A stretch of DNA of 32,970 nt. It comes from Candidatus Benthortus lauensis (GTDB taxonomy: Archaea; Thermoproteota; Nitrososphaeria_A; Caldarchaeales; Wolframiiraptoraceae). Below, piece after piece: positions 4,076-6,343 of this stretch (position 1 is the stretch's first letter; each line of letters starts with the position of its first letter). The stretch is taken from NCBI GenBank assembly GCA_021650775.1, contig JAHSRM010000042.1:1-32970 (forward strand), given 5' to 3'. Under the pieces are notes generated by a model. That model did no database searches and was not told the DNA's origin. It saw only the letters and a list, made by a program, of their open reading frames with translations. Position numbers and translations under genes: made by a program.

Positions 4076-4150
4076 TGGGTCACAGCCCCTGGATATATTC
4101 TTTCTATGTATATCCTTTAATTGCGGCATATAAATACTATCCACTCAGGG

Positions 4151-5158
4151 ATGTCGAGCCAGCCTCGTGATGTATACGATGTCACGATTATTGGTGCAGG
4201 GCCTACGGGGCTCTTTGCAGCCTTCTATGCGGCTGGTATGCGTGGCATGAAGACCAAGATTATCGAGGCCTTGGATAGGGTTGGGGGGCAGCTTGCTGTT
4301 CTCTACCCCGAGAAGTATATCTACGATGTGGCGGGGTTCCCCAAGATTCTGGCCAAGGACCTGGTTAGGCAGCTCGAGGCCCAGGCCATGGCATATAACC
4401 CAACCCTTGTTCTGGGCGAGCGTGTGGAGGAGCTACGATACGTTGAGGATGGAGTCATAGAGCTGCGGACCAACAAGAACAAGCATTACACCAAGACCGT
4501 GATAATCTGCGTGGGCAGAGGCGCCTTCCAGCCCCGCAAACTAGACAACCCGAGCGTGAATAGGCTTGAGGGCAAGGGGGTCTACTACCAGGTCAGGGAT
4601 AAGTGGCAGTTCCGTGGAAAGCGGGTCATGATTGTGGGTGGAGGGGACTCGGCCGTCGACTGGGCCCTTAACCTGAAGGATATAGCAAAGGAGGTAATCC
4701 TAATTCACAGGAGAACCAAGTTCAGGGCCCATGAAGGAAGCGTGATAGAGCTCTTCCACTCGCCGGTCAAGATAATGATACCATACGAGGTGAAGGAGGC
4801 CCATGGGAAGGATAGGCTCGAGGCCGTAACCATATTCAACAACAAGACAGGGGAGGAGGTAACCATGGAGGTGGACGCACTCATCCTCCAGCTGGGATAC
4901 CTGGTGGACATATCCATATTCAAGAAATGGGGGCTTGAGATAATCGACAACGCCATAAAGGTTAACGGCAAGATGGAGACCAATCTTCCAGGCGTTTACG
5001 CAGCGGGAGACATAGCCTATCCAGTCGACTCGGTTAAGCTGAACCTCATAGTCATAGGGTTTGCTCAGGCGGCCATAGCAGTTAATATGGCTAAGAACTA
5101 CATAGAGCCGGGGGCCAGCATATTCCCGGGCCACAGCTCGGAGAAGCGTATGATTTAG
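4151..5158 (+). CDS. Ferredoxin-NADP reductase (TrxB-like, type 2) / FAD-dependent pyridine nucleotide oxidoreductase
   Basis: GAGPTGLFAAFYA, GGQL, VGGGDSAVDWAL, GVYAAGDIAYP; no CxxC redox motif, so FNR-like rather than thioredoxin reductase. Confidence 0.85.
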   Translation: MSSQPRDVYDVTIIGAGPTGLFAAFYAAGMRGMKTKIIEALDRVGGQLAVLYPEKYIYDVAGFPKILAKDLVRQLEAQAMAYNPTLVLGERVEELRYVEDGVIELRTNKNKHYTKTVIICVGRGAFQPRKLDNPSVNRLEGKGVYYQVRDKWQFRGKRVMIVGGGDSAVDWALNLKDIAKEVILIHRRTKFRAHEGSVIELFHSPVKIMIPYEVKEAHGKDRLEAVTIFNNKTGEEVTMEVDALILQLGYLVDISIFKKWGLEIIDNAIKVNGKMETNLPGVYAAGDIAYPVDSVKLNLIVIGFAQAAIAVNMAKNYIEPGASIFPGHSSEKRMI

Positions 5159-5159
5159 G

Positions 5160-5214
5160 GCTCAGAGCTTTTGACCGGCATCATGGGTTCAGCCAGCCAG
5201 GACTCATCATCGCA
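5160..5214 (-). ncRNA. Candidate archaeal C/D-box guide sRNA
   Basis: Minus strand reads GCG-ATGATGA-GTCCTGGCTGG-CTGA-ACCC-ATGATGC-CGGTCAAAAGCT-CTGA-GC: C box 5210-5204, 11-nt guide, D' 5192-5189, 4-nt spacer, C'-like 5184-5178, 12-nt guide, D box 5165-5162. Confidence 0.72.
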
Positions 5215-5235
5215 TACAGGAGGCTGTCAGGGGAT

Positions 5236-5248
5236 TAGATAATTCTTA
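5236..5248. promoter_or_regulatory. AT-rich TATA-like element, possibly bidirectional (sRNA and rtcA)
   Basis: tagataattctta lies about 30 nt upstream of the minus-strand C box and about 34 nt upstream of the rtcA ATG at 5276. Confidence 0.35.
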
Positions 5249-5275
5249 TTGAACCTATGCCTTCCTGTCCTGTGG

Positions 5276-6343
5276 ATGATTGTGGTAGATGGCTCGATGG
5301 GTGAGGGGGGTGGCCAGATACTCAGGAACGCCGTGGCCCTCTCCGCAGTCCTACTCAAGCCCATAAAGGTCATCAACATAAGGGCCAAGAGAAGCAAGCC
5401 GGGCCTAAGGCCCCAACACCTAACAGCAATCAAGGCGGTGGCCTCACTATGCTCCGCAGATGTCAGGGGACTATCCGTGGGCTCCATGGAGGTGGTCTTC
5501 CATCCCAGGCGGAGGCCTAGGGGCGGGTCGATTAGGTTCGATGCGGGAACAGCTGGAAGCACAACCCTAATGCTCCAGAGCCTTATGCCCGCCATGTCGT
5601 TCAGCCAGGGGCCGGTGGAGGCGGAGCTTAGGGGTGGAACCAACAACCCTATGGCGCCTCCCACCGACTATCTCATCGAGGTCCTGACGCCTATCCTGGC
5701 CAAGATGGGCTGCGGGTTCCAAGTGGAGCTCCTTAGGAGGGGCTTCTACCCGAGGGGAGGCGGGGTTGTGAGGACACGCTCAAGGCCCACCGACTTCCTC
5801 AAGCCCATACATCTCTCGGAGCAGGGAGGTGTGAGGAGGGTCAGGGGGATAAGCTACAGCAGCAGGCTTCCAGGCCACATAGTCGAGAGGATGGCCTCCT
5901 CAGCCGAGAAGCTCCTCAAGCACCATGGCTATGACGTGGAAATCCTCAGGGAGGCTCTCCAGCCCGGCCACCCTAAATGCGCCCTCGACCCGGGATGCGG
6001 GATACTCCTAGTCGCAGAGCTTGGCTCAGGCTCCCTAATAGCATCCGATAAGCTGGGGGAGAAGGGTGTGCCGGCAGAGAGGGTGGGCGAGGAGGCTGCA
6101 CGAGACCTTCTCAAGCAGATAGAGACCGGGGCCGCCGTGGACAGGCATATGGGCGACCAGCTCGTCATATGGGCATGCCTAGCCGACGGCGTCTCTGAGT
6201 ATAGGGTCTCGGAGCTGACATCCCACACAACCACAAGCATAGAGCTCTGCCGCCAGATAGCAGGGTGTCAGGCAGAGGTTATAGGTGAGGAGGGTGGCCC
6301 AGCCACCGTAAGGATAAGGGGTATCGGGCTTAGGAGAGGTTGA
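5276..6343 (+). CDS. rtcA: RNA 3'-terminal phosphate cyclase
   Basis: DGSMGEGGGQILRNAVALS, RPQHLTAI, GTAGSTTLMLQSLMP, RGGTNNPMAPP, ELTSHTTTSIE; ATG at 5276. Confidence 0.95.
   Translation: MIVVDGSMGEGGGQILRNAVALSAVLLKPIKVINIRAKRSKPGLRPQHLTAIKAVASLCSADVRGLSVGSMEVVFHPRRRPRGGSIRFDAGTAGSTTLMLQSLMPAMSFSQGPVEAELRGGTNNPMAPPTDYLIEVLTPILAKMGCGFQVELLRRGFYPRGGGVVRTRSRPTDFLKPIHLSEQGGVRRVRGISYSSRLPGHIVERMASSAEKLLKHHGYDVEILREALQPGHPKCALDPGCGILLVAELGSGSLIASDKLGEKGVPAERVGEEAARDLLKQIETGAAVDRHMGDQLVIWACLADGVSEYRVSELTSHTTTSIELCRQIAGCQAEVIGEEGGPATVRIRGIGLRRG

Follow-up and report, generated by a model that had tools for sequence, protein, structure and literature searches.

A conserved archaeal C/D box sRNA gene predicted to guide 2'-O-methylation of tRNA-Lys(UUU) at wobble U34 and probably at C16

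The minus strand of the window (the whole stretch of DNA analysed, 32,970 nucleotides) contains a predicted C/D box sRNA gene at positions 5158-5214. On comparative sequence grounds, it is a real, conserved and free-standing gene under selection. The RNA of about 55 nt has its own predicted promoter and very probably guides the 2'-O-methylation of tRNA-Lys(UUU), at U34 and probably at C16. By analogy to archaeal C/D RNPs that have been characterised, the kink-turns of the sRNA would be the binding sites of L7Ae; the sRNA would recruit Nop5-fibrillarin, and the RNP would methylate the 2'-OH at the N+5 nucleotides. The D guide would pair with G31-C40 of tRNA-Lys(UUU) and put the wobble nucleotide U34 at N+5; the D' guide would pair with the D-arm and D-loop of the same tRNA and put C16 at N+5. 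Each guide is complementary to tRNA-Lys(UUU), so both guides fit one tRNA. The genome encodes a fibrillarin (PF01269, E=1.9e-93), and we infer transcription, RNP assembly and methylation at U34 and C16.

Read on the minus strand, the gene consists of box C (AUGAUGA, 5204-5210), an 11-nt D' guide (GUCCUGGCUGG, 5193-5203), box D' (CUGA, 5189-5192), a 4-nt D'-C' spacer (ACCC, 5185-5188), box C' (AUGAUGC, 5178-5184), a 12-nt D guide (CGGUCAAAAGCU, 5166-5177) and box D (CUGA, 5162-5165). Its approximate limits include the boxes and 4-nt flanks and are based on the box anatomy and on homologues in 18 genomes. The C-D'-C'-D array of the preliminary description was thus reproduced in its strings, lengths, order and archaeal spacing. 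Box D is invariant in an alignment of 15 sequences, and box C reads UGAUGA or UGAAGA in nearly all homologues. The GC flanks beside boxes C and D form a terminal stem of 2 bp (G5213-C5160 and C5212-G5161), in line with the weak stem described before. The G at position -3 and the C at position -2 are nearly invariant in 23 upstream regions, and the MFE fold pairs both. The single-strand fold of the sRNA has a z of -1.3, a measure that is uninformative for C/D RNAs. The window holds a single copy of the four-box pattern, and none appeared in 400 first-order Markov shuffles of the window. Genome-wide, the C/D'/C' pattern has four matches in 1.47 Mb compared to none in the reversed control. The element thus has the RUGAUGA and CUGA boxes, the internal C' and D' boxes and the guide and spacer lengths of archaeal C/D box sRNAs, together with a terminal stem, box conservation in relatives and a tRNA complementarity with the N+5 nucleotide inside the duplex.

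Comparison with Rfam gave no match at gathering level for the sRNA stretch. With permissive thresholds, the top scores on precisely this stretch went to archaeal C/D sRNA families: sR14 (RF01145, E=1.7e-6, 29.1 bits, gathering cut-off 38), sR1 (RF01152, E=3.4e-6, 29.4 bits, cut-off 45) and snoPyro_CD (RF00095, 20.7 bits, cut-off 45). These share with the window sRNA the box layout, the length and the short GC terminal stem, but their guides are unlike those of the window sRNA.

The gene lies between a convergent FNR-like Pyr_redox_2 flavoprotein gene (4121-5158, plus strand; PF07992, E=5e-33) and the divergent rtcA for an RNA 3'-terminal phosphate cyclase (5276-6343, plus strand; PF01137, E=2e-80). 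The alignment with homologues begins at about residue 9-10 of the longer open reading frame, and rtcA therefore probably starts with an ATG near 5275, leaving an intergenic gap of roughly 5159-5275. A TATA-like promoter element is located at 5238-5245 on the minus strand, 28-35 nt upstream of box C. The AT-rich stretch about 30 nt upstream that had been pointed out earlier is therefore present, and it is conserved: in the 23 upstream regions, 15 from the family of the window sRNA and 8 from a paralogous family, the AT fraction at positions -33, -31, -30 and -29 from box C is 0.96-1.00. A scan for bacterial promoters and terminators had no match, as expected for an archaeon.

In 18 of the 61 genomes searched, the window included, there are homologues that share these boxes and guides. 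They represent six genera (g1, g2, g4, g5, g10 and g12) and two families. BLAST with a 77-nt query detected 14 relatives; three others (G005, G014 and G018) came from a search with a sequence profile of 15 members. Within the window's own family, the sRNA is present in 15 of 16 genomes outside genus g3; six g3 genomes had no such sRNA, though at least five of the six yielded tRNA-Lys(UUU). In all g1, g2 and g4 genomes with a match, the sRNA is located divergently upstream of rtcA. The distance is about 60 bp for the window, compared to about 1 kb in all g2 and g4 matches. In g5, g10 and g12, it sits in other genomic contexts away from rtcA. Conservation is therefore not mere hitch-hiking with a neighbour. 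Loss of the boxes beside retained flanking genes had been named in the preliminary description as an argument against the sRNA; the opposite was seen, with boxes and guides kept where the neighbours differ. This independence from the neighbours, together with the conserved TATA-like box, argues for a free-standing, selected sRNA gene.

In one g2 genome (L095, 1420-1600), the sRNA precedes a SAM hydroxide adenosyltransferase gene of the same strand by about 24 nt, and an ORF of the Mrr-like/ATP-cone type is located between the sRNA and rtcA. The sRNA is located in the leader of the adenosyltransferase gene, which hints at co-transcription.

The D guide provided the clearest target. Positions 2-11 of the consensus guide GGUUAAAAGC form 10 of 10 Watson-Crick pairs with GCUUUUAACC, the anticodon loop of tRNA-Lys(UUU). 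The scan covered the 42 tRNA genes of the window's genome, and tRNA-Lys(UUU) was also read from relatives. tRNA-Lys(UUU) was the best of the 42 tRNAs, the best rRNA score was 6, and no shuffled guide reached the score of 10. The N+5 nucleotide, the fifth upstream of box D, is opposite the wobble U34. The window's own D guide pairs at 9 of 10 positions, with tRNA-Lys(UUU) still the best among 42 tRNAs; its score was reached by a fraction of 0.0018 of shuffled guides in tRNA-Lys and of 0.0275 in any of the 42 tRNAs. The single difference is a C.A mismatch at A37. It falls on position 8 of the guide, at a distance from the N+5 site, and is common to several g5 relatives. All 18 sRNAs agree at guide positions 2-6, the part that spans the U34 site, and position 8 opposite A37 is U in ten, C in six and A in two, so that it is unpaired in eight of the 18. 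A37 of tRNAs reading ANN codons normally carries t6A. The tolerance of a mismatch at position 8 could be explained by this modification. The tRNA hardly varies, and compensatory changes of guide and target could therefore not be seen.

The intron that follows position 37 of tRNA-Lys(UUU) begins with ACG in several g2 genomes. The 5' GG of the guide thus pairs fully with the exon nucleotides C39-C40 only in the spliced form, which weakly suggests that the mature tRNA is the substrate. The tRNA-Lys(UUU) genes of g5 and g3 (L141, L146, L149, L155 and L156) have an intron in the anticodon stem just before GCTTTTAA; in g5, this intron is present in addition to the one after position 37. For the homologue in genome G035, tRNA-Glu(UUC) was considered as D-guide target and rejected: the nucleotide before C32 does not fit in the tRNA-Glu of the window genome (L057); tRNA-Glu and tRNA-Lys(UUU) of G035 itself were not found.

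The D' guide is directed to the other arm of the same tRNA. In the window, it pairs with the D-arm/D-loop sequence CAGCCAGGA. In relatives, tRNA-Lys(UUU) has the D-arm/D-loop CAGCCAGGAU, and the D' guide (A/G)UCCUGGCUG forms a 10-nt duplex with it. The N+5 site is C16, in a register that is constant in the aligned genomes. All 12 relatives in the comparison show this pairing, in most cases along 8-10 nt if G.U pairs are counted. The preliminary description, in which no target was named, had already marked one N+5 nucleotide for each guide; these correspond to C16 for the D' guide and U34 for the D guide. The window D' guide has a G.G at the outer end of the duplex. The D-loop of its own tRNA-Lys reads GGAG, not GGAU. 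The window D' guide scores 9.5 with tRNA-Glu(UUC) and 8 with tRNA-Lys(UUU), and the latter score, which a fraction of 0.38 of shuffles reached in any of 42 tRNAs, is not significant alone. The D' boxes of most relatives are degenerate (CNGA, such as CAGA, CGGA and CCGA, or CUUA), and G014 and G015 have a D' guide in partial decay. Confidence in the D' site is lower than in the D site, and further tRNAs with AGCCAGG, for example tRNA-Glu(UUC), may be served by the D' guide as well.

rRNA offered no alternative target. Of the rRNA or tRNA complement that the preliminary description had proposed to look for, the tRNA part was found for both guides in tRNA-Lys(UUU); for the rRNA part, neither guide fits the 16S and 23S rRNA of the same genome better than shuffled guides. 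The method is able to find rRNA targets, as the same kind of scan gave a perfect 10-nt LSU rRNA match for another C/D sRNA of the genome. Taken with the conserved boxes and guides, the tRNA target supports the earlier classification as an archaeal dual-guide C/D sRNA.

The genome has three more C/D sRNA candidates (L063, L064 and L066). For L066, the D guide is perfectly complementary to LSU rRNA 2232-2241 over 10 nt; for L064, the D' guide matches SSU rRNA 863-872 with one G.U.

A chance arrangement of box-like words would be compatible with the missing Rfam match at gathering threshold and the missing rRNA complement. It has practically no probability left given the 400 shuffled windows, and the strong conservation in other genomic contexts already refutes it. 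Decay of a real sRNA is improbable, too: an ancestor would have modified tRNA-Lys(UUU), and the window copy would be an orphan guide inactivated by the C.A37 mismatch and the changed D-loop. Each guide does have one mismatch with its own tRNA, but that of the D guide lies off the N+5 site and recurs in g5 relatives, and the four boxes, the flanking stem and the promoter are all intact.

The remaining alternatives accept a functional sRNA and concern its D' half. Possibly, although we consider it unlikely, only the D guide works, on U34 of tRNA-Lys, and the D' half is kept for the kink-turn structure or for anchoring the substrate, without methylating. The degenerate D' boxes of most relatives and the decayed D' guide in G014 would fit, as would the tRNA-directed sRNAs of Pyrobaculum, which reportedly have one guide without target (PMC7994747). 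Against this, the core TCCTGG of the D' guide hardly varies and fits the tRNA that the D guide also matches, and the window has a perfect CUGA as D' box. It is a possibility to be taken seriously, if still a doubtful one, that the D' guide addresses several tRNAs with an AGCCAGG D-loop, such as tRNA-Glu(UUC), and not tRNA-Lys in particular. In the window genome, it fits best to TAGCCAGGAC of tRNA-Glu(UUC), with Asp, Ser and Lys tRNAs being comparable, and a guide against a region common to several tRNAs can act on many of them (PMC7994747). In relatives, however, tRNA-Lys(UUU) with CAGCCAGGAU is a full match to the ATCCTGGCTG guides, and a broader range of tRNAs is compatible with, and not exclusive of, the preferred reading of a double guide for tRNA-Lys(UUU).

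A paralogous C/D sRNA family with the guides GUCUGACCAGG and GGAUCUUGAGCU was observed at loci L082-L088 and L098 in the genomes G002, G010, G013, G016, G019, G031, G035 and G037. Both sRNA families are present in G035. The paralogous D guide is complementary to GCUCAAGAUCC, which some g2 genomes (L183-L186) have as the anticodon loop of tRNA-Leu(CAA), with C34 at N+5, and the paralogous D' guide partially matches the D-loop of this tRNA (CCUGGUCA in L183 and L184). A double-guide test of this family with the pattern CCTGGTCAGA...CTCAAGA had no match.

RNA-guided methylation of wobble nucleotides is known from other archaea. The nearest precedent is tRNA-Gln(UUG) of S. acidocaldarius, for which C/D guidance at U34 and G18 has been described and the modification observed (PMC7668247, 2020). 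Both systems have C/D guidance at the wobble U of a tRNA of a two-codon box and in the D-loop; the window sRNA differs in its tRNA, Lys(UUU), in its D-loop site, C16, and in its clade, and its sites are predicted. A C16 site was also predicted for tRNA-Gln of P. furiosus, undetected in the same study (PMC7668247). C/D sRNAs of Pyrococcus target position 34 of tRNA-Leu(CAA), tRNA-Leu(UAA), tRNA-Met and tRNA-Trp (PMC7994747). They share with the window sRNA a guide spanning the anticodon loop and N+5 on nucleotide 34, but the list is without tRNA-Lys, and the Trp guide is an intron whereas the window sRNA is a free-standing gene. Unlike in the Pyrobaculum tRNA-directed sRNAs, for which a targetless guide is reported, both guides of the window sRNA fit one tRNA. 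The RNA kind is thus already known, and the window sRNA would be the tRNA-Lys(UUU) analogue of known wobble-directed guides. The literature search found no report of a wobble guide for tRNA-Lys(UUU); the main Pyrobaculum catalogue (Lui et al. 2018) was outside this search, and the novelty of the target is provisional. It found nothing relevant on C/D sRNAs of this clade, which seem unstudied.

As a guide for the wobble base of tRNA-Lys(UUU), the sRNA appears to be undescribed. A seemingly orphan guide was resolved by the consensus of a clade instead of a single sequence, with the precise prediction of Um34 and Cm16 in tRNA-Lys(UUU). More tentatively, and with rather low probability, the double-guide sRNA would modify U34 and C16 throughout the clade and tolerate the A37 mismatch because A37 is hypermodified to t6A at the time of binding. 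If so, RNA-guided wobble methylation would act late, on the spliced tRNA.
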